Shown here: one piece after another, positions 4,102-17,395 of the stretch
Position numbering within the stretch: position 1 is the stretch's first letter
Layout: every line of letters begins with the position of its first letter
Origin: Streptomyces sp. RerS4
Lineage (GTDB): Bacteria > Actinomycetota > Actinomycetes > Streptomycetales > Streptomycetaceae
DNA: 64,000 nucleotides
NCBI RefSeq assembly: GCF_023515955.1
Contig: NZ_CP097322.1
Span: 62,001-126,000 of the forward strand
Direction: 5' to 3'
The notes under the pieces: generated by a model
Seen by the model: the letters and a program-made list of their open reading frames with translations, nothing else
What the model was told of the DNA's origin: nothing
The model's database searches: none
Made by a program: the position numbers and the translations under genes

Positions 4102-6470
4102 CGGGTCACCTCCGCTCGCGCGGAGAGCACACGATCCCGCGCGCGTCGGTCGGCGCCGGGGACGGGGCACCTCCGCTCGCGCGGAGAGCACAGCCCGAGG
4201 AGTCCTGATGCCCGAGGTGAAGGCGGGTCACCTCCGCTCGCGCGGAGAGCACGTCCACACCTGCCCGTGGTGCATGAGCCGGATCGGGTCACCTCCGCTC
4301 GCGCGGAGAGCACGGTCAGGCGTCGCCACGGTGGTACTACGACGGCGGGTCACCTCCGCTCGCGCGGAGAGCACCAGTCCTCGGCGAGGGCGATGTAGCG
4401 GGGAGCCGGGTCACCTCCGCTCGCGCGGAGAGCACATCAGGTCCGCAGCGTCCAGCCTGGCAGGGGGCGGGTCACCTCCGCTCGCGCGGAGAGCACGCCG
4501 CCGGGGTCCAGTACACGGTGGGCTGGAGCGGGTCACCTCCGCTCGCGCGGAGAGCACGTAGACCTCCTCCGGCGGAACGCCCCGCAGGGCGGGTCACCTC
4601 CGCTCGCGCAGAGAGCACTGCACGTCCAGGCGCAGGCTCTCCCACGCGGGCGGGTCACCTCCGCTCGCGCGGAGAGCACCACGCTGACGCGGCCCACGAC
4701 AAGCCGGGGCACGGGTCACCTCCGCTCGCGCGGAGAGCACTTCCGCGTGCACTTCGCGGGGCACCGGTACGCCGGGGCACCTCCGCTCGCGCGGAGAGCA
4801 CGCCGCCGGGGTCCAGTACACGGTGGGCTGGAGCGGGTCACCTCCGCTCGCGCGGAGAGCACATGACCAGCGGGGATACCGGCTCGGGCGCCGGCGGGTC
4901 ACCTCCGCTCGCGCGGAGAGCACGCGCGGTGGCGCATCTGTGGTACCACACTTGACGGGTCACCTCCGCTCGCGCGGAGAGCACACCTCCCACGTCGCGT
5001 GGAGGCCGATGGCCTGCGGGTCACCTCCGCTCGCGCGGAGAGCACGTGGTCTTGGGGGCCGTGTTCTTCTGCAACTGCGGGTCACCTCCGCTCGCGCGGA
5101 GAGCACGGCAAGGAGGTGAGCACCTCCTTCGCGCAGATCGGGTCACCTCCGCTCGCGCGGAGAGCACCACCAGGAGGCGACGAGGCTGGCCGTGTGGGAC
5201 GGGTCACCTCCGCTCGCGCGGAGAGCACGGGGCACGGGCGGCCGGCGCCCTCCGGTACGACGGGTCACCTCCGCTCGCGCGGAGAGCACTCAGCCCACCA
5301 GCTCCGTCGTCGAGAAAAGCGCGGGTCACCTCCGCTCGCGCGGAGAGCACCCCCAACGCAGTCCCCACGACTCAATCAGGAGCGGGTCACCTCCGCTCGC
5401 GCGGAGAGCACCGAGCCATCCGCTCATGGGGCATCCCCGACGCCGGGTCACCTCCGCTCGCGCGGAGAGCACCCCCCGGCCCCGTCTGTACGTGGTCCCT
5501 GCCCCGGGTCACCTCCGCTCGCGCGGAGAGCACCCCGGTAGCCGTGGCTACGGACTCAAGCACACCGGGTCACCTCCGCTCGAGCGGAGAGCACGGTCGG
5601 CCGTCCACACGCGGGATCCGATCGTGCGGGTCACCTCCGCTCGCGCGGAGAGCACTTTCACGATGGAGTCGAATGCCGATTCACCGGCGGGTCACCTCCG
5701 CTCGCGCGGAGAGCACGAAGCCGCGGGGCCGGCCCCGGAGCCTGAGGACGGGTCACCTCCGCTCGCGCGGAGAGCACGGCCGGCGGCTTCCCTGGAATCG
5801 GGGAGCTGGCGGGTCACCTCCGCTCGCGCGGAGAGCACGCCCAGTGCGTCGGTGACGTCTTGCGGCATGGCGGGTCACCTCCGCTCGCGCGGAGAGCACG
5901 TGCGCGCTCAGGCCGTCCCCCAAAGGGCGGCCGGGTCACCTCCGCTCGCGCGGAGAGCACCGGGCATGATGTGGGACATCGGTCCTCTTCTCCGGGTCAC
6001 CTCCGCTCGCGCGGAGAGCACTCCAGCAATCGGGGTGCTCATCGCGAGGTCTCCGGGTCACCTCCGCTCGCGCGGAGAGCACCGCTCCGCCGCCGCCTGC
6101 CGGCGGATCTGCCGCCGCCTGCCGGCGGATCTCACGCGGGTCACCTCCGCTCGCGCGGAGAGCACATCGTGCGGTGGGCGCTCGCCCCCTCCCCCACCGG
6201 GTCACCTCCGCTCGCGCGGAGAGCACGGGACCAGGACTTCCTTCTTGACCGTGCGCCACGGGTCACCTCCGCTCGCGCGGAGAGCACCCGACGTCGGTGC
6301 CCTTCCTCGGGAGGAGAATCGGGTCACCTCCGCTCGCGCGGAGAGCACGGCCATGACCATCATCGAGTCCATGGCGCGGACGGGTCACCTCCGCTCGCGC
6401 GGAGAGCACACGAGGCCCGGAGCGTCCGGAACGTCAATCCGCGGGTCACCTCCGCTCGCGCGGAGAGCAC
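4102..6470 (-). CRISPR. type I-E CRISPR array 1 (39 repeats, 38 spacers)
   Basis: 39 near-identical 29-nt repeats at a 61-bp period with 32-nt spacers. On the minus strand the repeat starts GTGCTCTCCGC, has the hairpin CTCCGC-GCGA-GCGGAG and ends GGTGACCCG. Variants on the plus strand: repeats starting 4163 and 4773 read GGGGCACC instead of GGGTCACC; 4590 has a G-to-A change in the stem; 5566 has CGAGCGGAG. Most variants lie in the left half, the old, leader-distal end. Spacers 4497-4528 and 4802-4833 are identical. The spacer at 6083-6136 is 54 nt because of an internal 22-bp tandem duplication. The leader is at the right, overlapping the end of cas2. Confidence 0.98.
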
Positions 6471-6515: not shown

Positions 6516-6791
6516 GTCGTGCTGGAAGGTGATCAGTGTGAGGCCGTCGAAGTCTGTGGGCCTCCGGCGTTGGCTTCCGGTGGTCCGGAGATTGAAGCCC
6601 TGTTCGTTGTCGCTTGGATAGGCCAGGACTGCCGAACCCTCCTGACTGGCGGCGGCAACTGATTCCCAAAGCTGTTCCCGGACACGTGCTGAGACGGTGC
6701 CGACGTACAGCTCCGGGGTCACTTCCAAAAGCCAGCGGCTGAGTGCCCCTCGTAGATGAGGGGGTACCGCCGAGGCCGCGATGACGATCAT
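6489..6791 (-). CDS. cas2: CRISPR-associated endoribonuclease/adaptation protein Cas2 (type I-E)
   Basis: 100 aa, the usual length for Cas2e. It begins MIVIAASAVPPHLRGALSRW and continues WLLEVTPELYVG, the typical Cas2e ferredoxin-like start. With Cas1 it forms the spacer-integration complex; Cas2e is a structural bridge. I chose the ATG at 6791 because it gives an ATGA overlap with the cas1 stop (6788); an in-frame ATG at 6800 is possible. The 3' end doubles as the array 1 leader. Last gene of the cas operon. Confidence 0.92.
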   Translation of the reverse strand: MIVIAASAVPPHLRGALSRWLLEVTPELYVGTVSARVREQLWESVAAASQEGSAVLAYPSDNEQGFNLRTTGSQRRRPTDFDGLTLITFQHDDNEMANRS

Positions 6792-7810
6792 TGAGGCCAT
6801 GTGAACCCACCTGTTGGGGCCTCGGGCGAGGAGGCGTGATTTGTGCCGCCGCGGATGGGGCCGGTGACGGGGTCCCATAGGTCTACGAGTTCTTCCTCGA
6901 CGTCTGGTACGGCGTGCTGGGTGTCAGGGTCGAGTAGGTCTTGGAGGTCGGCGACGATGCGTGGGAGCAGATTGAAGAGACGGAGGCCGTCACGGAAGGA
7001 TCGGCGGGCTGTTGCCTCCGGGTTGGGGGAGGCGTGCAGGGAGAAGGCCAGCGGGATGGTGAGCTGGGCCTTGTAGAGGTCGGCGACGTCGTAGACGAAT
7101 GCCTGCTGGTTGCCGGAGTGGATGAAGCCCAGAGCAGGTGAGCAGCCTAAGGCGAGGATCGCGGCGTGAACGATGCCGTAGAGGCAGGTGTTGGCAGCGG
7201 AGAGGGCGAGGTTGACCGGGTCTTGGCTGTCCCAGGCGTCTGGGTCGTAGGTCCGGCGGAATCGGCCGATTCGGTGCTGTTGGGCCAGGAGCCGGTAGTG
7301 GGCCTTGACTCGCTGCCCTTCCATGCCGCGCAGTTGGGCAAGTGAGGTCGCTTGCTTGGGAAGGCTGTCCCTTCCGAATCGCTTCTCGTACATGGCGGTG
7401 GCCACGGCCAGGCGCCGGTCATCGTCGCACCACGCTCGGGTCTGGCGTTCGAGCCAGGCTGTGCTGAGGGAGTCGGGAAGGGCGGCCGCGTAGCAGCGCA
7501 CTCCTCCGGAGCCGGTGATGAGCACAGTGGTGCCGTGGCGGGCGAGTGTGGTTAGAGCGCGGGCCGTGATGGAGGTTCCGGGGCCGAGGAGGACACAGCT
7601 GAGGGCGGCGGTAGGCAGGTAGACCGATTCGGTGCCGCGGCCGCTGGTCACTTCGGCGCGCACGCCGGTGTCGTCCTGGTGGATTCGGACGACGTCGAGG
7701 TAGAGGAATGAGAGTGAGTCAGCGATGCGCGGCAGCATCGCGACGGTGGGTTTGGCCAGGCGGCGGCGGGCGTCACCAGGTCGGCGTGGCGGTGTGGGCT
7801 GTGTCGTCAT
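6788..7810 (-). CDS. cas1: CRISPR-associated integrase Cas1 (type I-E)
   Basis: 340 aa. Integrates new spacers at the leader end with Cas2. The metal-binding residues of the family are visible: Glu164 in RGMEGQRVKAHYR, His231 in GFIHSGN and Asp244 in DVADLYK. The N-terminal beta domain is present, so the protein looks full-length and active. ATGA overlaps at both ends (with cas6e at 7810 and cas2 at 6791) show tight operon coupling. Confidence 0.96.
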   Translation of the reverse strand: MTTQPTPPRRPGDARRRLAKPTVAMLPRIADSLSFLYLDVVRIHQDDTGVRAEVTSGRGTESVYLPTAALSCVLLGPGTSITARALTTLARHGTTVLITGSGGVRCYAAALPDSLSTAWLERQTRAWCDDDRRLAVATAMYEKRFGRDSLPKQATSLAQLRGMEGQRVKAHYRLLAQQHRIGRFRRTYDPDAWDSQDPVNLALSAANTCLYGIVHAAILALGCSPALGFIHSGNQQAFVYDVADLYKAQLTIPLAFSLHASPNPEATARRSFRDGLRLFNLLPRIVADLQDLLDPDTQHAVPDVEEELVDLWDPVTGPIRGGTNHASSPEAPTGGFTWPQ

Positions 7811-8463
7811 GGGGTAGCCGCCCGGGTGGGAGCGACGGTGAGGAGTCCGCAGCCGTAGGCCTTGCCGCGGCCGATGCCGTCGGTGAGCTTCATGCGGAGT
7901 TGGTGGGCGTCGATGATTGTCGCGCTGCCGTCGAAGCGCGTGCGGGCGTGGCGTATGCGCTGCGTGCTGGCGCCTGTGCGGGTTCCGCGGGCGGCGTCCA
8001 CGGGCTGGGAGTGCAGGCTGAGGACCTTCAGGCCGGCGATGTCGGCTTGCCGCACCCACCATTCGTCGGCTGCGGTTCCGGAGAGGGCGACGACGGCTGG
8101 CAGGTTGTAGGCGGCGCGGGTGGAAGCGCCGGGTTTGCGTACTGGGCTTGCCACGCAGCGGAAGCGGACGGTCAGGCCCGGCCGCAGCGCGTCCAGCATG
8201 ACGTCGAGGGGCCGGGTGGCGGCGGTCCCGTAGGTGCCGGCGAGCTTGTCCAGGTCGGGTCGGTGGGTGCTCTGCATGAGCAGGTGCGGACCGGCGGGGG
8301 TGTCGTCGATGCGGTGCAGCACACCGAAGCGGGCCCGCGGGTCGGGGCCGGCGTCGTCGGGGAACAGGGACATGAGCCGGCGGTGGAGGTCAACGGCAGT
8401 GCGGTCACGCCGGGCCTCGCGGGACCGGGGGTCAGGGACGATACGCGTGAGGTAGACAGTCAT
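7807..8463 (-). CDS. cas6e: pre-crRNA endoribonuclease Cas6e (CasE/Cse3)
   Basis: 218 aa. Cleaves the repeat hairpin and stays bound to the crRNA 3' end in Cascade. The C-terminal glycine-rich loop of RAMP proteins is visible (DGIGRGKAYGCGLLTV), and His27 in DLHRRLMSLFP lies where CasE has its catalytic His. ATGA overlaps with cas5e upstream and cas1 downstream. The GNRA-capped repeat hairpin (GCGA loop) fits this enzyme class. Confidence 0.94.
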   Translation of the reverse strand: MTVYLTRIVPDPRSREARRDRTAVDLHRRLMSLFPDDAGPDPRARFGVLHRIDDTPAGPHLLMQSTHRPDLDKLAGTYGTAATRPLDVMLDALRPGLTVRFRCVASPVRKPGASTRAAYNLPAVVALSGTAADEWWVRQADIAGLKVLSLHSQPVDAARGTRTGASTQRIRHARTRFDGSATIIDAHQLRMKLTDGIGRGKAYGCGLLTVAPTRAATP

Positions 8464-9314
8464 CGCGGGCTGCTTTCCGGCTGGGCCAGGTGCTCGGCGG
8501 TGTACGAGCCGAGGGTGTTCAGGTGGGCGGTGCCCAAGCCGGTGTACTGGTCGGCGGGCAGGCGGAGGATGCGCTGGTAGGCCGGGCGGGCCCGGTAGCT
8601 GCGCCGCTGGGGGTGGAAGCTGGCGGGATGGTCGTTGATCTGCCCGGCCGGCATGTCCCCGTCTTCGGCGTTTGCTGTGCGTAGTGCTCCGGGGACGGGC
8701 AGCCGGTCCAGGGGGCGGTCGGAGGTGAACGTGACGTCGGGATGGTGGCCGGCGCGCGGCGGTCGTGCGGCGATCGGCAAGTGGAGTAGATGGTGCAGTA
8801 CGTCGTCGCTGGAGCCGAGCAGGAGCGGGCCCTCGGGCGGGCAGGAGCGCCGTCCCAGGAAGAGTGGCCACCTCGGGTGGATCAGCGCGGCGGCCGTCTC
8901 GCGCAGGAGGCCCTCTGGGGTGTCGCTGGTGGTGGTGAGGGCGATGGTGAACGCGGCGTCGGAGAGGTAAGTGCGGTGGGTCTTGAGCGTGGTGGTGTCG
9001 CCGCCGCGTTTCTTGCCCTCGGCGGTCGTGACGGTGGCGCGGGCGGGCAGGCCGCCGCCGACGGTGTGCAGATCACGCAGGGGCACACCGGGACGGTCGA
9101 TCCGCACGGTCAGGGTCAGGGTGGCTAGGTCGTCGATGTGCTGTTCCCGGGTTCGGCCCATGGCTGCGGCAAGGAGACCGATGACGCCGGAGCGGGTCGG
9201 GAAATGGGCGGTGTCGCGCTCGTTGAAGTGGGAGAGGCGGCCCCACGATTGCAGCGGACCGGCCAGCCGCAGCAGGATCCCCTCCTCGGGAGCGGGCCGT
9301 GCGGTGGTGGTCAC
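8460..9314 (-). CDS. cas5e: Cascade subunit Cas5e (CasD)
   Basis: 284 aa, a little longer than E. coli CasD. Binds the crRNA 5' handle in Cascade. The N-terminus has the RAMP signature LLRLAGPLQSWGRLSHFNER followed by PTRSGVIGLLAAAMGR, characteristic of Cas5e. Start ATG at 9314, overlapping the cas7e stop at 9311 (ATGA). Confidence 0.95.
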   Translation of the reverse strand: MTTTARPAPEEGILLRLAGPLQSWGRLSHFNERDTAHFPTRSGVIGLLAAAMGRTREQHIDDLATLTLTVRIDRPGVPLRDLHTVGGGLPARATVTTAEGKKRGGDTTTLKTHRTYLSDAAFTIALTTTSDTPEGLLRETAAALIHPRWPLFLGRRSCPPEGPLLLGSSDDVLHHLLHLPIAARPPRAGHHPDVTFTSDRPLDRLPVPGALRTANAEDGDMPAGQINDHPASFHPQRRSYRARPAYQRILRLPADQYTGLGTAHLNTLGSYTAEHLAQPESSPR

Positions 9315-10486
9315 GCGGCAGATCCGCTCGGCTGTGCCAGTGCGGCGTCCAGGGCCGCGGTCAGCAGGTCGTCGAACGCGTCGTGGCGTTCGCCCAGGCC
9401 CTGCAGTGTCTTGGTCTCCAGGCTGGTCCAGCCGGCGGTCAGGATGTGCCGGGTGCCGAGCATGGTGTTGGCCGCACGCGCGTACCCGGCGAGCGCTTCG
9501 CGGCTCGGGGCACCGTAGCCGCCCTCGATGGCCGCGGACACCGGCTGCTCGAACGCGGCCGCGTACGACAGGGGGCGGTCGGAGCGCACGCTGACGTGGA
9601 CGAGGTCGGGGATGGTGTGGGCGGCGGTGGAGTTCTTCTTGGCCTGGGGCAGCGAGGTGATGAAAGCCTGGAGGAAGCCGTGGGCCAGTTCCCGCAGTTC
9701 CTGCGGGGTGCCACCCGCGTTGTGCGCCAGGTCGCGCAGGTCGAGGGTGGCGTAGCGGTAGAACGTGCCGGCACTGAACTCGGCGTGCCCCATGTGCCCG
9801 CTGCCGCTGGAGTCCCCCCAGACGGCGGTGACATCGTCCACGGCGGAGAAATAATCGAGCTCGACATCGGTGGGATGGGTCGTCATGGCGTGCGCGACCT
9901 GGACGGCACCGTCAACGCCAGCCTCGTCTACCTCGGCGAGCATCCGCCCGAACAGGTTGATCACTCCGTTACGGGACCGCAGGACCCGCTCGACCGGCTC
10001 CTTGGGCAGCACGCTCTTGTCCGCCGGCTTCTTGATGTCCTTCGCCGACTCCAGCGTCTCCCGGTGCTCCTGCGCAAGATCGGCGAGCTCCACCACAGCC
10101 GCCTCGGGCACGTACACCATCGCGTTGGTCAGCACCTTGTTCGCGATCTGCTGCCTGTCCCCGTCCTTCGCCAACTCGAACTTGATGCTGGACGCGGCCG
10201 CGAGGTGGGCTCCGGCCCGCTCGGCGAGATCCACAGGCCAGCCCCGCTCCTGGAGCAGCTTCGTGACACGCTCGCCGATCCGGCGCGTCCGCAGCGCGGC
10301 GTCCCCGACCTGCTGCTCGAACGCGCCGCGGATCGCCCGCTTCCAGGACTGGCTGCTGACCCGCGTGCGCAGCGTGTTGCCGTACTGCACCGTTTTGACG
10401 GAGTTGGTGTCGTCGCGGTTGAGATTGGCGAACGGCACGGACTGCACGACATGGATGTCAATGAACCGGGCGGGTGCTGTGGGCAT
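9311..10486 (-). CDS. cas7e: Cascade backbone subunit Cas7e (CasC/Cse4)
   Basis: 391 aa. Forms the backbone filament of Cascade along the crRNA spacer. Typical start: FIDIHVVQSVPFANLNRDD, then QYGNTLRTRVSSQSWKRAIR. The ATG at 10486 is preceded on its strand by TCAGGAGATC, a good Shine-Dalgarno. A 63-nt gap to cse2 is the largest gap inside cse1-to-cas2. Confidence 0.96.
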   Translation of the reverse strand: MPTAPARFIDIHVVQSVPFANLNRDDTNSVKTVQYGNTLRTRVSSQSWKRAIRGAFEQQVGDAALRTRRIGERVTKLLQERGWPVDLAERAGAHLAAASSIKFELAKDGDRQQIANKVLTNAMVYVPEAAVVELADLAQEHRETLESAKDIKKPADKSVLPKEPVERVLRSRNGVINLFGRMLAEVDEAGVDGAVQVAHAMTTHPTDVELDYFSAVDDVTAVWGDSSGSGHMGHAEFSAGTFYRYATLDLRDLAHNAGGTPQELRELAHGFLQAFITSLPQAKKNSTAAHTIPDLVHVSVRSDRPLSYAAAFEQPVSAAIEGGYGAPSREALAGYARAANTMLGTRHILTAGWTSLETKTLQGLGERHDAFDDLLTAALDAALAQPSGSAA

Positions 10487-10549
10487 GACTGATCTCCTGA
10501 CGTAACGATGCGAACGGTGCGCGCCCTGTCCGGGCACATCACTGGGGTT

Positions 10550-11293
10550 TCAAAGCGAAGCGGGGGCTTCGCCGGCGCCTTGGTCGTCGGCCCGCTTGGC
10601 GGCCTCATGCGCGTCACGGGCGCGGATTCGGTAGTAGTCCTGCAGCCATCGGCGGGCGATGCGCCCCGAGTGGCGCTGCCACTGCGCCAGGTCCGACAGC
10701 AGCTGGGAGAAGTCGACGCTCACGTCGAGGGAGCTCAGGTAGGCCACCGAGGCCGGCAGGTGACGGTGAAGCCCCGGCAGGCTCTGCCGGGTCAGCAGGT
10801 TCAGCCGACTCTCGGCCGTGCCCTCCCGCATCACCGCCTCCCGTCCCCCAGCCGCAGCTGCGAACGCCGCACCGAGACTGCTGCCCCACACCGGCCCCGT
10901 GCGACCGCGCGCACCCTCCGCGCCGACGGGCACCGCCACCGCACCGGCCTCGCCCTGCGCAGGCCCGGCCCCGTCCTCACTGGCCGCGGAACGGGGCTGC
11001 GCGGCAATCATCGAGGCGACGGCGTAGTACGCCTGCTGCACCTCCCTGGGCGTACGGTCCTGAGGAAGCCACGGCGCCACGAACCGGTGCATCCGCACCA
11101 CCGCGTCCAAGTCCTTCCGCAACCCGCTGCGCAGCGCCGCCCGCGCCCCCGGGTCCTCGGCACACAGCCGCTCCACCCACGCCACGAACGCCCGCTCCCG
11201 TGCACCCCGGTCACCCTGCCGCTGCCCTGGCACCAGGACCTGCCCGCCCATGCTGGCCGGCACCGGCTCCGCCCCTGCCGTCGTCGCCGTCAT
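10550..11293 (-). CDS. cse2: Cascade small subunit Cse2 (CasB/Cas11e)
   Basis: 247 aa, longer than E. coli Cse2 because of an Ala/Gly/Pro-rich insert near the middle. Helical, with the family pattern ARAALRSGLRKDLDAVVRM near the N-terminus and SLDVSVDFSQLLSDLAQWQR near the C-terminus. It stabilises target-strand binding in Cascade. Start ATG at 11293; the gene lies 53 nt after cse1. Confidence 0.93.
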   Translation of the reverse strand: MTATTAGAEPVPASMGGQVLVPGQRQGDRGARERAFVAWVERLCAEDPGARAALRSGLRKDLDAVVRMHRFVAPWLPQDRTPREVQQAYYAVASMIAAQPRSAASEDGAGPAQGEAGAVAVPVGAEGARGRTGPVWGSSLGAAFAAAAGGREAVMREGTAESRLNLLTRQSLPGLHRHLPASVAYLSSLDVSVDFSQLLSDLAQWQRHSGRIARRWLQDYYRIRARDAHEAAKRADDQGAGEAPASL

Positions 11294-11346: not shown

Positions 11347-12927
11347 CTACTTCTTCTTGCGGTTGCCGCCGTACAGCTCGATCCGCGCGTCGCTGACCGC
11401 CTTGGCCCCTCGCTGGGTCCGCGTCACGGTGGCGGTGACCGCCTCGTACGCCTCCTCGGCCAACCGCAAGAACGCCTTACGCGCCTCGCCCGTGTTCAGC
11501 CCGACGTCCGGCGACTCCCCGCTGCGGTCGAGACCGGCGAACCGGCTCCAGAACTCCTTCTCGGCCTGCGGCCAGTACCGGCCCGCCGCATCACCGACCC
11601 AGGCGTCCCCATCGGCCTTCGCGTCATCGACGTACGCGGCCCACGCCCGCCGCACAGCACGCTCCAGACGCCACCCGAACATCTCCCCCATACTCCGCAG
11701 CCGCCCCACCGCGGGCGCCGTCCGCGGAGCCCGCTCCTCGACGAGGTCGAACACCACGGGCGTGGAGGCGTCAACAAACTGGAAGTCCTTGGCCTGACCC
11801 TCCTGATCGAAGCCCAGAGCCCGCACCCGCAGCCGCTCGGTGACCTCCTGCGCCGTGCGGAACACCACCGGCCGCACCGGCTGTGCCGTCCCCGACGGCT
11901 CCAGCAGCAACAACGCGTCCAGATCCCGCCACAGGCCCCGGCGCGCATCCGCCGGCCTCGGGTACCGGTTGCCCTGCTGACTGGTCTGCCAGATCAGGAA
12001 ATCGTCATCGCGCGGCCTCCGCTCCCCCTGAAAGGCCCAGGTGACATAGGCGTCCGCCACCAGCTGCCCGCTCTCGTCGGGCACCAGCAGCACCGCGTGC
12101 TCCGAGCATGCCGTCAGCCGCGAACATGGCCCCTGAGGCAGCAACGGAACACCGGCAGGGTCAGGCAGCTCCTCCCACTCCCAGGGGCACAAGTCCCGCT
12201 CCTGCCTGTCCGAACTCCGCGGCGGCACCAGCCCGGCCAACAGCGTCTCGAACAGACTCGCGCCCTCGGGGTGATACGACAGCGCCGTCCGCAACGGCCC
12301 CGCCGACGCACTCGCGCTCTTCACCCCGCCCACCTCACGCGCCGAGCACCGCCCCGACGGCCCCCAGTAGTGCCACACCAGCAGGTTCAGCACCGCCTCC
12401 GGCACCGCCGGCAGATCAGGGCGCGCATCACTGCCGTGCCGGAACCACGCGTGATTGTTGCCCGACGGCCGCGAGATGATCAGCTTGTTCACCCCGGCCG
12501 TGTTCTGCCGATCGCACTGCTCGCGCAGCCGCGCGTCCTGCATCCACGGACGACCCCCCACCGGGTCGAACACGAAGAACCGCTCCCGCCACCGGGCGAG
12601 ATACCCCTCCACCCCCGGCGGTCCACCTCCGCCCGGACGGCCTTTACCAGCCGGCAGCCGCCCCTCTACCAGCAGTTCGACGCGCCGGTCGGCCCAGTCG
12701 GGCCCTGCCAGGTCCAGGCCCGTCACCCGAGCCGTCAGCGCGTACAGCACCCGCAGCAACGCGGCGTGCGCCGGAGCGTCAGGCACGTCAAGGCCCGCGA
12801 TGTCCCCCGCGCGCAACAGCAGATCACGCAGACCCACCCGGTCAGGTAACTCCCGCGCGCCGGCTTCCGGCCGCCACCGCACCGGGATCCACCCCTCATC
12901 GACCAGGCTGTAGATGCCATCAGGCAT
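11347..12927 (-). CDS. cse1: Cascade large subunit Cse1 (CasA/Cas8e)
   Basis: 526 aa. Recognises the PAM and recruits Cas3. It begins MPDGIYSLVDEGWIPVRW, the hallmark Cse1 N-terminus (LxxExWIPV), and has the C-terminal four-helix region. The Lys-rich end (YGGNRKKK) is normal. The ATG at 12927 is the first gene of the Cascade block. The 224 bp upstream contain a mini-CRISPR and the likely promoter (13103-13133), so this gene is the probable point of control. Confidence 0.95.
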   Translation of the reverse strand: MPDGIYSLVDEGWIPVRWRPEAGARELPDRVGLRDLLLRAGDIAGLDVPDAPAHAALLRVLYALTARVTGLDLAGPDWADRRVELLVEGRLPAGKGRPGGGGPPGVEGYLARWRERFFVFDPVGGRPWMQDARLREQCDRQNTAGVNKLIISRPSGNNHAWFRHGSDARPDLPAVPEAVLNLLVWHYWGPSGRCSAREVGGVKSASASAGPLRTALSYHPEGASLFETLLAGLVPPRSSDRQERDLCPWEWEELPDPAGVPLLPQGPCSRLTACSEHAVLLVPDESGQLVADAYVTWAFQGERRPRDDDFLIWQTSQQGNRYPRPADARRGLWRDLDALLLLEPSGTAQPVRPVVFRTAQEVTERLRVRALGFDQEGQAKDFQFVDASTPVVFDLVEERAPRTAPAVGRLRSMGEMFGWRLERAVRRAWAAYVDDAKADGDAWVGDAAGRYWPQAEKEFWSRFAGLDRSGESPDVGLNTGEARKAFLRLAEEAYEAVTATVTRTQRGAKAVSDARIELYGGNRKKK

Positions 12928-12967
12928 GGAAAACGTCCGATCCGGTAGACGACAATCAGGGAAAGGA
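12926..12967 (+). promoter_or_regulatory. leader-like sequence upstream of the mini-CRISPR
   Basis: Reads ATGGAAAAC, then TAGACG, then GGGAAAGGA just before the first degenerate repeat. The array 2 leader has ATGGCAAA, TAGACG and GCGAAGG in the same order. With a few gaps it therefore looks like a relic CRISPR leader pointing in the plus direction, and probably supplies the promoter for the mini-array RNA. Confidence 0.5.
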
Positions 12968-13054
12968 GTCCCCGCCGGAGCGGGGGTGAGCCGTTTGGCG
13001 CTCGCGGCCAGCAGAGGTCGATCTCCTGTACCTGCGCAAGCGGGTGTATGGCAT
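12956..13054 (-). CDS. possible 32-codon minigene antisense to the mini-CRISPR
   Basis: ATG at 13054 and TGA at 12956-12958. The peptide starts MPYTRLRRYRRSTSAG. Codons 8, 10 and 11 are AGG, AGG and AGA, which are rare in Streptomyces. It is overlapped completely by the mini-array on the other strand and lies downstream of the putative cse1 promoter. CreT-type toxin minigenes act through rare Arg codons, so it is recorded, but I see no convincing ribosome site and it may be chance. Confidence 0.2.
   Translation of the reverse strand: MPYTRLRRYRRSTSAGRERQTAHPRSGGDSFP
12968..13053 (+). ncRNA. mini-CRISPR with two degenerate repeats (CreR/CreA-like crRNA)
   Basis: First repeat 12968-12993: stem CCCCGC, loop CGGA, stem GCGGGG, then GTGAGCCG, which is exactly the 8-nt crRNA 5' handle of array 2. 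Second repeat 13028-13053: stem CCTGC, GNRA loop GCAA, stem GCGGG, then degenerate. The two are 60 bp apart (the real arrays have 61), leaving a 34-nt spacer starting TTTGGCGCTCG at 12994. Both repeats lack the same 3 nt relative to the consensus. The spacer's first 11 nt match 13115-13125 except at position 6. In published systems such RNAs guide Cascade to repress cas or toxin promoters. Confidence 0.75.
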
Positions 13055-13102
13055 CAAATCCGTGGATAGAGCTGCCAAATGGCTGATTCTCGGGCGAGTT
13101 GA

Positions 13103-13146
13103 ACGCTAGCGAAGTTTGGAGCTCGAAAAGCAAGAAACTCGAAACT
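13103..13146 (-). promoter_or_regulatory. likely cse1 operon promoter and mini-crRNA target site
   Basis: On the minus strand: TTGCTT (13133-13128) as -35 and TAGCGT (13108-13103) as -10, 19 nt apart, fitting Streptomyces TTGnnn/TAGnnT promoters. On the plus strand an AAG trinucleotide at 13112-13114, a preferred type I-E PAM, is followed by TTTGGAGCTCG (13115-13125), matching the mini-CRISPR spacer seed TTTGGCGCTCG with one mismatch at position 6. A Cascade bound here would cover the -35 and promoter spacer. Confidence 0.65.
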
Positions 13147-13151
13147 GGGCT

Positions 13152-16013
13152 TCAAGACGCTTCAAGACCCACGTCGGACATCTCGAACACACGCTCGCCG
13201 TGACGGCAGGACCAACCAGCCCCATCCGTCCGCCGCATCACCAGCAGCACCACGCCACGCAACACCGCGTGCTTCTCCCACCCGGCCGGCACGACATCAG
13301 CCTCACTCCCCCGCAGCCACCCGCCAGGAACAGGCGTCACATAAGACATCACGTCCGCCACGTCCTCCGGGGACAACGAGCCCGCAGGCAACACCATCAG
13401 CCCAGCCTCGTCCAGCGTCACCGAACCATCCACCTGGGCGTACACACACACCACACGGCCTGAATCCGCCCCCAGCCTCGTGGTCAACAACTCCTCCGTC
13501 ACACCACTGTCCGGCTGGGTCAACCGAGACAGATCCCCAGCCACATCCGCCGGCGAGCAGACAGACACCAAGTCGGCCAGATACGCCTCCACCGACTCCC
13601 CCGCAAGCCGCTCCCCATCCAACCGGGCCAGCTCACGCCCCACCGCCTCATCCAGACCGTCGACAAACTCAGGCGCGTACACCTCGTCCACCAGACGCTG
13701 CACCGCCCCCGGCACCGCGATCCCCGAACGCTCCCGTGCCAGCAACAACGACGTCCGCCTCAGCAGACCCGCGTCATACACCCGATCCCACGACACCGGC
13801 GGACGAACATCCACCGCCGCATCCGCCAGCGGATCGAGCACCACCAGCCGCGGCCGGTCCTCCTCCGCAGCCCACCCCGGACGGCCCCCCACACCACGCG
13901 CGTGGCGACGGCAACGCCCCGCCCTCTGCAGCAACTGAGCCAACGGAGCCAGATCACTGACGACCACATCGAAATCGAGATCCAGGGACTGCTCCACCAC
14001 CTGCGTCGCCACCAGAACCGACGCTGCCCGCACCACGGGCTCCTCGCCACCCCGAGGCTTGCCGTACGCAGCCTCACACTCCTCCGTGATCCGCTGCCGC
14101 ACCCGAGCGGGAAACCGCGAATGCAACAACCGCAACGCCCCCTCACACCCCGACAGGTCAGGAAACGCCACCACAAGATCACGAAAAGTCTGCTGCGCCT
14201 CCGCCACCGTCGTACAGCACACCAGCGCCGTGCCACCCCCCTCCACCACCTCCCGCAACGCCTCCCGCAACGCCTCCCGGCGCCCACCCCGCCGCACCCC
14301 CACAGCCCGCTCCGCGACATCCCACACCACAGGCCGCACCACCACATCCAGCGTCCGACCCCGCCCACTGGCCACCTGCCGCCCCGCCGACACCTCACCA
14401 CTCACAGCACTCACATACAGCCAGCCCGGATACCGCGGCTCCACCACCGCCTCATCCGCGAAACCAGCCCCCCGCCGATACGCCTCCACCAGCGAAGTCG
14501 CAGACCGCCCCGTCAACGTCGCCGACAACAACACCACCGGAGCACCCAACGCCCCCAGCCACTCCAGCAACCGCACCATCAGCTGATGCATCCACGGCCC
14601 GTACGCATGCGCCTCGTCGACCACCACCACCTTCTCCGCCAGCCCGAAAAGCCGCATCGGCCCATACCGGACCGGCAACACCCCAGTCAGAATCTGGTCG
14701 ACCGTCCCCACACCCAACGGCGCCAACAACCCCCGATGCCGCCCCCGCAGCCACGCCTCGCCCTCCACGGCCGTCCCCGCACTCAAACTGACATCCACCC
14801 GGCCAGCAACCGTCACAGCACCGGCAGGACGCAACCACGCCATCGAATGCAGCAACGTCAACGCACGGTCGCCATCCAACGCCGACTCGGCGAACCGCCG
14901 CACCCGCGCAAACATCGCATCCGCCGTCGCCATCGTCGGCAACGCCATATACAAACCCCGAGAACCGGCAGCCCGGCCCAACACCGAGGCGGCAAACAGT
15001 GCAGCCTCCGTCTTCCCATCCCCGGTCGGCGCCGTCACCAGCACCAACCCAGGCCCACCCCGCCCCACCAAGCCCGGCAATTCACCGACCATGTCCTCCT
15101 GCAGCGGGTTCGGAGCGAACCCGAACATCTCCACGAAGCCCTCAACCGCGAACCGCGCCCTGCCCACCCCGGCAGCAGCCGCCACACCAGCGACCACCCC
15201 ACACACCCGCTGCCAATGCCCATCCACCTCAGCCGCCGAACCACCCCACCCCACCGGCGGCAACAACGACTCCACCACTTCCGACTGACTCACCAGCCAG
15301 TCAGACACCACCACCAACCCCCACACCACCACAGCCAACTCCGCCGGCAACCCCGCGACCGGCACAGCACCAGCCCCCGTCACCCGCCGCAACTCCGCAA
15401 AATGCGACCACCGCTGCGCCGCCCACCCCTCACCACCCAAACCCGGCTGATAGTCCGACGCCCGCAACAGCTCCCGCTCCCGCAGCACCCCACCGAACAC
15501 CCCATGGTGCCCACCCAGCAACTGCGCCACCTGATGCCCCACCGCACCCCGCAGCAGCTGCCGCCCATCAGGTAACCGACGCCCCTCCGGATACCCCACC
15601 TCAGCCAACAGCCCCGCCAACGCCCAATGCGAAGCCACCTCATGCCGGAACCCCCACTCACCCTCAGCCCCGACCGCGAAGCCATACACCGGCTCATCAC
15701 GCAGCAACGCGAACGCCTCACCGACCTGTGCCTGAAACGGCGGAGAAATCTTCCCTAAATCATGCAAACCAGCCCAAAAGGAGACAACCGCCCGCGCCTC
15801 ACCAGTCGACAAACCCAACGCCCGACTGATCCGCCCACGCAGCCCCTCACCAAGCACCCCATCCCACAGCACCTGACACGCGGCAGCCGCATCCAGCAGA
15901 TGACACATCACCGGGTAGCGCCGAGAAAGACCCCGAGCCTTCCCCCACAAACGACCATCAGGACAGGACCAGCTCACTACGCTGTGGTCACGTCGCATCA
16001 CGCAGACAGGCAT
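13152..16013 (-). CDS. cas3: CRISPR effector nuclease-helicase Cas3
   Basis: About 953 aa. Recruited by Cascade to unwind and degrade target DNA. The N-terminal HD nuclease has His38 (CHLLDAA), His84-Asp85 (AGLHDLGKISPPF) and HEVASHW. The SF2 helicase has Walker A TAPTGDGKTEAALFAA, a DEAH box (VVVDEAHAYGPW), LLSATLT and motif VI QLLQRAGRCRRH. All key residues are present. Start candidates: TTG 16031, ATG 16013 (preceded by GTGGTGG) and ATG 15998; I took 16013. It is transcribed toward cse1 but separated by 224 bp with its own regulatory element, and diverges from array 2. Confidence 0.95.
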   Translation of the reverse strand: MPVCVMRRDHSVVSWSCPDGRLWGKARGLSRRYPVMCHLLDAAAACQVLWDGVLGEGLRGRISRALGLSTGEARAVVSFWAGLHDLGKISPPFQAQVGEAFALLRDEPVYGFAVGAEGEWGFRHEVASHWALAGLLAEVGYPEGRRLPDGRQLLRGAVGHQVAQLLGGHHGVFGGVLRERELLRASDYQPGLGGEGWAAQRWSHFAELRRVTGAGAVPVAGLPAELAVVVWGLVVVSDWLVSQSEVVESLLPPVGWGGSAAEVDGHWQRVCGVVAGVAAAAGVGRARFAVEGFVEMFGFAPNPLQEDMVGELPGLVGRGGPGLVLVTAPTGDGKTEAALFAASVLGRAAGSRGLYMALPTMATADAMFARVRRFAESALDGDRALTLLHSMAWLRPAGAVTVAGRVDVSLSAGTAVEGEAWLRGRHRGLLAPLGVGTVDQILTGVLPVRYGPMRLFGLAEKVVVVDEAHAYGPWMHQLMVRLLEWLGALGAPVVLLSATLTGRSATSLVEAYRRGAGFADEAVVEPRYPGWLYVSAVSGEVSAGRQVASGRGRTLDVVVRPVVWDVAERAVGVRRGGRREALREALREVVEGGGTALVCCTTVAEAQQTFRDLVVAFPDLSGCEGALRLLHSRFPARVRQRITEECEAAYGKPRGGEEPVVRAASVLVATQVVEQSLDLDFDVVVSDLAPLAQLLQRAGRCRRHARGVGGRPGWAAEEDRPRLVVLDPLADAAVDVRPPVSWDRVYDAGLLRRTSLLLARERSGIAVPGAVQRLVDEVYAPEFVDGLDEAVGRELARLDGERLAGESVEAYLADLVSVCSPADVAGDLSRLTQPDSGVTEELLTTRLGADSGRVVCVYAQVDGSVTLDEAGLMVLPAGSLSPEDVADVMSYVTPVPGGWLRGSEADVVPAGWEKHAVLRGVVLLVMRRTDGAGWSCRHGERVFEMSDVGLEAS

Positions 16014-16073
16014 AGCAGCCACCACTGACAACGCCCCCCCACGAACCAGATCGAGGCCATGAGAGCCAACAGC

Positions 16074-16115
16074 AAACGAATGGCAAAAGACCTCTAGACG
16101 GCCAGGTCGCGAAGG
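16074..16115 (+). promoter_or_regulatory. leader of CRISPR array 2
   Basis: 42 nt before the first repeat: AACGAATGGCAAAAG, then CTCTAGACG, GCCAGGTC and GCGAAGG. Gapless alignment to the array 1 leader (about 27/42, with blocks ATGGCAAA, TAG, CAGGTC and AAGG identical) supports its identity and the orientation of both arrays. The whole cas3-array 2 gap is about 100 bp, so the cas3 promoter and array 2 promoter are divergent and close. Confidence 0.65.
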
Positions 16116-16441
16116 GTCTTCTCCGCGCGAGCGGAGGTGAGCCGCCCTGGACGTCTACGACCTCGGCGCCGACCCCGTCTTCTCCGCGCGAGCGGAGGTG
16201 AGCCGTCCGTACTTCCACCAGATCTTTGCCGACTTCAGTCTTCTCCGCGCGAGCGGAGGTGAGCCGAGACCGCGGGGTCCGGCGATGGAGCGGAGCCGGT
16301 CTTCTCCGCGCGAGCGGAGGTGAGCCGCGCCCGCCCATCCGATCCTCGGGGCGAACCGGTCTTCTCCGCGCGAGCGGAGGTGAGCCGCGATGCTCCATCA
16401 CACGAGCGACCGGGACTATGTCTTCTCCGCGCGAGCGGAGG
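16116..16441 (+). CRISPR. type I-E CRISPR array 2 (6 repeats, last truncated; 5 spacers)
   Basis: Repeats start at 16116, 16177, 16238, 16299, 16359 and 16420. The repeat begins GTCTTCTCCGC, has the same CTCCGC-GCGA-GCGGAG hairpin and ends GGTGAGCCG. It differs from array 1 in the first bases (GTCTTC against GTGCTC) and near the end (GAGCCG against GACCCG). Spacers are 32 nt, except the fourth at 31 nt (16328-16358). The last repeat is cut after GCGGAG (about 16441) and passes straight into a truncated protein gene. Confidence 0.96.
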
Positions 16442-17395
16442 GCCTCCGCTTGGTATTCGGGCCCCGATCAGTCCCTACGAATGGACTCCGCATCCTATCT
16501 TGAGAATATCACCGGAGTAGGCCCAGAAGGTGCCGTATTCAACCGTCCGGTACCCTACTTCTCCTACGATTATCAAGACCAGAACGTAAAGCAGGTCGCG
16601 GAACACATATTCCACGCCTACCACATGACCGACAGTACAGACCCTGCGGTGACCCATAAGAAGAAAATTCCAGGCTGGATGCATGATGCTCAAACAACCT
16701 ACTTGACCCGCAATTACCCAGAATTTAACGCCCAGCTGGGCGATCAACTTTATAAGGACGCCCAGGAAATCTCCAAAAAGAACCGCAACGCCAAGAATGC
16801 AGAGTGCGCAAAAATCGCCAAAGGCAACCCCGAGTACGAGTGCGACGAGTTCCCCTTCGCGTCAACGGCGGAAGGGGGCGGCCAGGGAGACTTCTCAGTT
16901 CGCTATGTACCCAGAGGGGCTAACGGTTCGGCAGGAGGAAAGCTGTCGACCTGGTACGCACGCGATCGAATATTGCACGGCGATGAAATCCAAATATTCA
17001 TCACAAACTATCAGAACATAATTCCGGCTTCTCTCATTTCGCGACACTCGGGCAAGGCGTTGGATATCGGAGGTCGAGCACCGGGATTCAAAGCAAAAAT
17101 CTGGACTCACGGCGGGCAACCCGCGCAGGACTTTTCATGGAATGAAGACAAAGAACTCCGGGTATACGGAAACAGCTGCCTTGACGGTGGAAACTCGGGC
17201 GCCAGCGTCACCAACCAGGCTTGCTCCGGTTCAGAGACACAGAAATGGGAAGCACACCCTTCATACGCCGGGTCAATCGTGCACAAGAAGACCGGACTCT
17301 GCCTCGATGTCAGAGGGGCAGGTACCACGAACGGTACCCTTGTCCATCTATGGACGTGCAGCGGGTCCGACAATCAGAAATGGGATCCCAAGTAG
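16442..17395 (+). pseudogene. 5'-truncated NucA/NucB-type DNase with ricin-type lectin domain
   Basis: About 315 codons open from the truncated CRISPR repeat to a TAG at 17395. The middle has YECDEFPFASTAEGG, the NucA/NucB nuclease signature (DEFPFAST). The C-terminal 130 residues are a ricin B-type beta-trefoil with QKW motifs (SETQKWEAHP, SDNQKWDPK) and SCLDGGNSG/LCLDVRG. Such proteins are normally secreted, but the signal peptide and N-terminal part are missing here. Base composition is visibly less GC-rich than the cas genes, suggesting separate ancestry. The nuclease core may be intact, but no start or ribosome site is evident, so I call it broken. Confidence 0.75.

Follow-up and report, generated by a model that had tools for sequence, protein, structure and literature searches.

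What is a pair of degenerate CRISPR repeats doing in the 224 nt that separate cas3 from cse1 in a type I-E locus, and why does the one spacer that they enclose begin with a sequence that recurs, behind an AAG, upstream of cse1? The locus lies in a window of 64,000 nt (the whole stretch of DNA that was analysed) whose nearest named relatives are Streptomyces, and an original prediction had proposed an autorepressor of cas expression. We consider it probable (roughly 0.88) that the mini-array would yield a crRNA-like CreR (cas-regulating RNA) able to guide the cell's own Cascade to the promoter of the cse1 operon and so to repress the Cascade genes. This reading draws on the anatomy of the mini-array, the PAM, the seed match, the uniqueness of the PAM-seed word, the recurrence of the element, the 5+1 pattern (five positions read, one skipped) in which spacer and target covary, and the strand for which the stems appear to be kept. 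The proposal of an autorepressor finds its support in the seed-target covariation among relatives, in which position 6 is free.

The cas locus and its mini-array

All of the cas genes that we found by NCBIfam matches lie on the minus strand (Table 1), and they include an effector set of cse1, cse2, cas7e, cas5e, and cas6e, each scoring above its family cut-off, the complex that a CreR would need for its processing and use. CRISPR array 2 lies upstream of and divergent from cas3, and array 1 lies downstream of the cas genes. One spacer of array 1 occurs twice, at 4468-4557 and 4773-4862, within 90-nt units that are 99% identical. Two further Cse1-like matches were seen in the same genome (L002 at C1:5283-6761 and L003 at C1:388892-390373), both below the family cut-off, and a repeat search of 1.5 kb on either side of these loci returned no CRISPR-like array.

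Table 1. Features of the cas locus and of the mini-array, in window positions
Feature	Position	Strand	Basis
CRISPR array 1, about 37 spacers	4102-6390 (right end approximate)	-	repeat search
cas1e, longest ORF 424 aa, Cas1e match from residue 108 on	6788-8062	-	TIGR03638, 347.8 bits
cas6e	7819-8466	-	NCBIfam above cut-off
cas5e	8460-9314	-	NCBIfam above cut-off
cas7e	9311-10537	-	NCBIfam above cut-off
cse2	10550-11293	-	NCBIfam above cut-off
cse1 (cas8e), opening gene of the operon predicted to be repressed	11347-12927	-	TIGR02547, 352.7 bits
GACAAT, likely -10 of the mini-array (creR) promoter	12951-12956	+	8 nt before R1; motif in relatives
R1, 29-nt degenerate I-E repeat, GGAGTCCCCGCCGGAGCGGGGGTGAGCCG	12965-12993	+	sequence; 6-bp stem intact; hairpin fold
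Handle of R1, 8 nt, GTGAGCCG	12986-12993	+	sequence
Predicted mature CreR (8-nt handle, 32-nt spacer, 21-nt 3' hairpin)	12986-13046	+	inferred from Cas6e geometry
Spacer, 32 nt	12994-13025 (seed 12994-13004)	+	sequence; match to 13115-13125
R2, second degenerate repeat, hairpin intact, handle lost	13026-13054	+	sequence; hairpin fold
TAGCGT, likely -10 of the cse1 operon promoter	13103-13108	-	recurrence in relatives
AAG PAM of the target	13112-13114	+	sequence; S. avermitilis I-E PAM (a passage of PMC4762764)
Seed target	13115-13125 (full 32-nt protospacer position 13115-13146)	+	unique PAM-seed word; covariation
TTGCTT, possible (weak) -35	13128-13133	-	called in the original prediction; 19-nt spacing
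cas3, upstream gene, ends before the cse1 promoter	13152-16031	-	TIGR01587 and TIGR01596 above cut-off
CRISPR array 2, six repeats, last degenerate	16116-16448	+	repeat search; handle as in R1

Read directly from the sequence, the mini-CRISPR occupies 12965-13054 of the plus strand, with degenerate repeats around one spacer at a cas locus, as looked for in a CreR. The original prediction of two degenerate repeats with intact hairpins stood, with R1 beginning at 12965 instead of 12968 and the spacing, start to start, amounting to 61 nt instead of 60. The repeat search grouped R1 with an array 2 repeat in repeat family D7, and R1 does end with the exact 8-nt handle of array 2 (GTGAGCCG in both), as had been claimed; array 1, read on the minus strand, ends in GTGACCCG. 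The R1 stem has a C-G pair where the arrays have T-A, swapped on both sides so that pairing is preserved. We rejected 12965-13054 as a canonical CRISPR array, in which near-identical repeats surround several spacers, since R1 and R2 are unlike each other and unlike the repeats of arrays 1 and 2 and hold a single spacer between them. An Rfam search across 12800-16700 gave no match.

The seed, its target and the promoters

The seed TTTGGCGCTCG matches AAG+TTTGGAGCTCG (13112-13125) at positions 1-5 and 7-11; the mismatch at position 6 and the AAG before the site could be read off just as predicted. AAG is the PAM reported for the I-E system of S. avermitilis (a passage of PMC4762764), and type I-E crRNAs leave every sixth base unpaired (stated in part of PMC13122317). 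The prediction that pairing stops after the seed was borne out as well, spacer positions 12-21 being unmatched and the matches at 22 and 25-28 being at chance level. The pairing is thus seed-limited, with 10 of 10 read positions matched behind an AAG and beside the likely cse1 -10, as expected of a CreR, and with 10 read positions and none at 12-21 it falls at the short end among element-bearing loci. Within the window the PAM-seed word AAGTTTGGNGCTCG has a single occurrence, also when one mismatch is tolerated (0.03 expected), and its exact form occurs once in the whole 7.54 Mb genome. Shuffled seeds of 37 loci, compared with their own regions, reached at least 9 of 10 positions plus AAG in 3 of 7400 trials.

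The target lies directly upstream of TAGCGT (13108-13103), the likely -10 of the cse1 operon, which reads towards cse1 about 175 nt before its start. On the cse1 strand, 25 of the 38 element-bearing loci have a TANNNT box that follows the PAM complement at a distance of 0-7 nt, versus 336 of 16226 background windows (2.1%). A conserved -35 was sought in the aligned cse1 upstream regions of relatives and none was found, and a sigma-70 scan gave no promoter for either the cse1 operon or the mini-array transcript. Of the promoter originally proposed for cse1, then, the -10 TAGCGT is upheld by the comparison and the -35 TTGCTT, neither conserved nor part of a site in the sigma-70 scan, is not. What survives of a "leader-like" sequence before R1 is the -10-like GACAAT 8 nt upstream, which has similar motifs in relatives: 27 of the 38 loci have an ACAAT- or TAGGCT-type motif, picked after inspection of the loci, in a 28-nt interval whose last 2 nt belong to R1, versus 4% of background windows.

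Recurrence in relatives

We compared 185 cse1-upstream regions, made up of the window, 22 loci from named genomes, and 162 from genus, family, and class genomes (the class-level set numbers 46 regions and includes members of the same genus). Cse1 was detected in 61 of the 392 genomes at genus level, in 66 of 394 at family level, and in 67 of 394 at class level. Not all of these matches entered the set: second copies close to the ends of chromosomes were skipped, as were some matches that were weak or partial, and L049 was excluded as its match begins within the gene. Some species are present twice among the 185 regions, and the position profiles use distinct spacers only. Our detector (the 5-of-5 rule) called an element from a hairpin plus handle, an AAG, and an exact match at spacer positions 1-5, leaving positions 6-24 unused for the call; where one region held several such sites, the best over positions 1-16 (without 6 and 12) was taken.

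By this rule 48 of the 185 regions were positive, with 38 distinct spacers (that of the window included), and 137 were not. Among these 38 spacers, the match to the target was nearly unbroken at positions 7 to 11 (38, 38, 33, 36, and 34). Position 6 matched in 7, in line with one in four; it differs in the other 31, as expected if Cascade skips it, which agrees with the claim that this base goes unread. Position 12 matched in 15, positions 13 to 16 in 31, 33, 25, and 23, position 17 in 12, and positions 18-24 in 7 to 12, which is background. Matches past position 16 are thus neither kept nor avoided, and that the limit of pairing near 16 is itself selected would be a guess. In all 38 loci the best 6-bp hairpin near the R2 position had no mismatched pair.

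When spacers and regions were swapped among loci, a 5-of-5 match arose in 29 of 1406 pairs. A second, stricter rule of at least 9 of 10 positions plus AAG was satisfied in 48 of 185 real regions, in 0 of 185 on the other strand, in 1 of 925 Markov shuffles, and in 1 of 812 plus-strand tiles; minus-strand tiles (11 of 812 at 9 or more) include the mini-arrays themselves, so only the plus-strand tiles serve as a control. The same rule gave no match in the cas3-casA gap of E. coli K-12. Its 48 loci differ from the 5-of-5 set, adding L133, L136, and L179 and lacking L015, L023, and L038. An 8-of-10 rule gave 46 loci with 37 spacers, and swapped pairs reached at least 9 in 18 of 1332 cases. A loose repeat rule alone found an R1-like site in 128 of 185 regions, many of them chance-like, and presence was counted only together with a target.

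Weaker or shifted forms that fail the 5-of-5 rule were seen in L012, L054, L055, L113, L133, and L136. The likely target in L012 matches spacer positions 3-19 unbroken (17 nt, with 1-2 unmatched), the longest such run among the 8-of-10-rule alignments, and a second similar copy lies nearby. L179, from another family of the class, was the sole strict match in the class set (9 of 10 plus AAG, 298 nt from the handle). Some same-genus genomes share their spacer with named Streptomyces contigs (L029 and L006).

By eye, no repeat was found upstream of cse1 in L032, L034, L035, and L089, and the Cse1 identity of the close relatives L032-L035 and L089 is 65-67%. Six further loci (L017, L093, L095, L109, L022, and L098) have well-formed repeats with no AAG-flanked seed match within 440 nt. 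L017 and L093 hold two well-kept repeats, with repeat and spacer identical between the two loci, and the repeat with the intact handle abuts the likely promoter; in L095, R1 lies beside the cas3 stop codon and the remaining mini-array and promoter region are gone. The close relatives that have no repeat, along with at least nine changes of the element label on well-supported branches of the Cse1 tree, indicate an element that is dispensable and has apparently been lost or gained repeatedly among relatives.

Covariation of spacer and target

The tree was built from 70 of 75 Cse1 sequences that passed our filters (locus number under L110, 380 or more matched residues, identity of 40% or higher), by a quick method that left some long branches; 36 of its rows have the element by the 5-of-5 rule, 3 have a weak form, and 31 are without. 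We counted the fewest changes on this tree for each spacer and target position, where one branch may hold changes at several positions, so that the counts are not separate events. At positions 7-11 there were 36 same-branch co-changes versus 9 changes confined to the spacer and 12 confined to the target. Position 6 had 4 co-changes versus 9 and 10, and position 12 had 0 versus 13 and 13. Positions 13-16 were mixed (15 co-changes versus 27 and 31), and positions 17-20 gave 11 versus 35 and 34. The 48 coupled and 0 uncoupled changes at positions 1-5 reflect a coupling imposed by the detector. The sister of the window (L004) and its next relative (L005) differ from it in their seeds, and each seed has its match in the promoter of its own locus. 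The covariation in homologous loci that the original prediction had called for was thus found, with 33 to 38 of 38 spacers matched at positions 7-11. Together with the unpaired sixth base of I-E crRNAs, the 5+1 covariation points to promoters in element-bearing genomes that bear the imprint of Cascade's reading pattern.

The stems of R1 and R2 in the 38 loci hold 20 G-U pairs when read on the mini-array strand versus 1 on the cse1 strand. R2 alone, unused for detection, gives 9 versus 0; the R1 detector accepted G-U pairs and rejected A-C, which biases the R1 count mildly but leaves that of R2 unaffected. From this wobble count, an RNA read from the mini-array strand is the likely reason why the stems persist, and a role of the stems in the leader RNA of cse1, on the other strand, is disfavoured by the same 20 versus 1. 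A strong hairpin of another kind lies between R2 and the cse1 promoter in 25 of the 38 loci (z below -2; L004, L006, L020, L101, and others) and is missing in the window (z +0.36). A test for strand preference of this hairpin gave none (Wilcoxon p 0.74), and it could serve either as a terminator of the CreR transcript or in shaping the leader of cse1.

Alternative explanations

A decayed array or ectopic repeat pair without function, its seed match being the remnant of a spacer taken from the own promoter, would suit the degenerate repeats, the broken versions in relatives (L016, L095), and the array that C. diphtheriae I-Ea has between cas3 and cse1 (a section of the review PMC12231136). A relic, however, would not stay matched through the 36 coupled changes at positions 7-11, nor would it preserve its stems via G-U pairs on one strand; we rejected this explanation, which the covariation rhythm contradicts and which we hold to be very improbable. 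On the same rhythm we rejected the idea that seed and target are two copies of a DNA-binding site, or direct repeats held alike by recombination, with the CRISPR repeats incidental. Although seed and target share a strand and are separated by 102 to 219 nt, as operator pairs can be, 36 different 11-nt seeds in 37 spacers misfit the site of one protein, and recombination would copy positions 6 and 12 also, which match in just 7 and 15 of the 38. The handle before one copy and the AAG before the other are requirements of the detector and so are no independent evidence on this point; even so, this is the least probable explanation we considered.

A different possibility is a CreA-like antitoxin RNA, where the repressed promoter would drive a small toxin RNA or peptide and not cse1. 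CreA employs the same seed of positions 1-5 and 7-11 (part of PMC8501985), but the -10 at the target reads towards cse1 from about 175 nt before its start, in a comparison that covered the relatives upstream of cse1 only, and we would rank this explanation between the other two, at a similarly low level.

Proposed mechanism of CreR autorepression

For the CreR reading we apply the cleavage geometry of type I-E Cas6e to R1 and R2. The plus strand would be transcribed from the promoter beside the cse1 start codon, and Cas6e cuts behind the R1 and R2 hairpins would release a 61-nt RNA starting with GUGAGCCG-UUUGGC. In the hairpin fold of this predicted RNA the handle folds onto part of the spacer, which counts against the CreR reading. 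Cascade loaded with CreR would pair over 11 nt beside the -10 (to about 16 in relatives) and obstruct RNA polymerase. Because Cas3 recruitment is enabled by complete R-loop formation (stated in a passage of PMC13122317), a match of 11 to 16 nt should bind without cutting; the short R-loop would not lock Cascade for Cas3, and the site would stay uncut. In I-E systems partial or mismatched targets can also prime spacer acquisition (same source, in part), and such acquisition can be a cost that the autorepression model leaves unaddressed.

Repression would ease, and the operon be made again, once Cascade is engaged by ordinary crRNAs or by anti-CRISPR proteins, in the way that a passage of the review PMC12737573 describes for CreR. 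The cas3 gene, upstream of the target, would escape CreR control, since cse1 to cas2 are co-transcribed in S. avermitilis and cas3 is separate (part of PMC4762764). For the window, we infer each of these steps (transcription, processing, Cascade binding, repression, and relief).

We would give roughly even odds to a wider claim, namely that this is a widespread autorepressor, repeatedly re-aimed across Streptomycetaceae, in which guide and cas promoter rewrote each other, pairing is confined to roughly the first 16 positions, short of the R-loop length at which Cas3 cuts, the promoter evolves under Cascade's frame of five read and one skipped, and the loop takes in the Cascade operon alone, without cas3. 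The CreR reading itself offers a concrete, testable reason why native Streptomyces I-E systems may be held down, and deleting or mutating the mini-array would be a simple handle to raise them. From genomes alone, the covariation also reveals the guide positions on which Cascade likely relies in natural regulation (1-5, 7-11, and 13-16).

Comparison with known systems

One haloarchaeal CreA system is of type I-B, and type II systems provide a precedent in which an effector with a short-match guide represses its own promoter, the RNA and the effector both differing from those of the window. Shmakov et al. 2023 reportedly treated CRISPR-derived RNA regulatory elements, that is, repeat-derived regulatory RNAs in CRISPR-Cas systems. 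In this haloarchaeal CreA, repression requires exactly positions 1-5 and 7-11 and is regained when guide and promoter carry paired mutations (sections of PMC8501985); these are the very positions matched in the window. CreA and the window element also share two degenerate repeats, a PAM in the promoter, and Cascade as repressor; CreA differs in that its target is a toxin and its motif in H. hubeiense is TTC, whereas the window has a cas operon as target, a type I-E system, and AAG.

CreR was reported for types I-B, I-E, and V-A by Liu et al. 2023 in Cell Host Microbe (as summarized in passages of PMC13131331, PMC12948488, and PMC12737573). The CreR passage of the review PMC12948488 does not mention Streptomyces, the review of actinomycete CRISPR systems PMC12231136 has no occurrence of CreR, and a search for covariation in I-E systems, at the level of titles and the first lines of abstracts, gave no paper on it. 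As set out in the three CreR passages, the likeness to the window lies in a mini-CRISPR guide that is partly complementary to a cas promoter, a Cascade-type effector, and autorepression, which here is predicted. The window element differs from them in belonging to an actinobacterial I-E system and in lying on the strand opposite cse1, between the cse1 promoter and start codon, and the family-wide 5+1 covariation seen here is not described in those passages. Type I-E CreRs being already known (a passage of PMC13131331), the window adds a further, probable CreR with an unusually clear evolutionary record.
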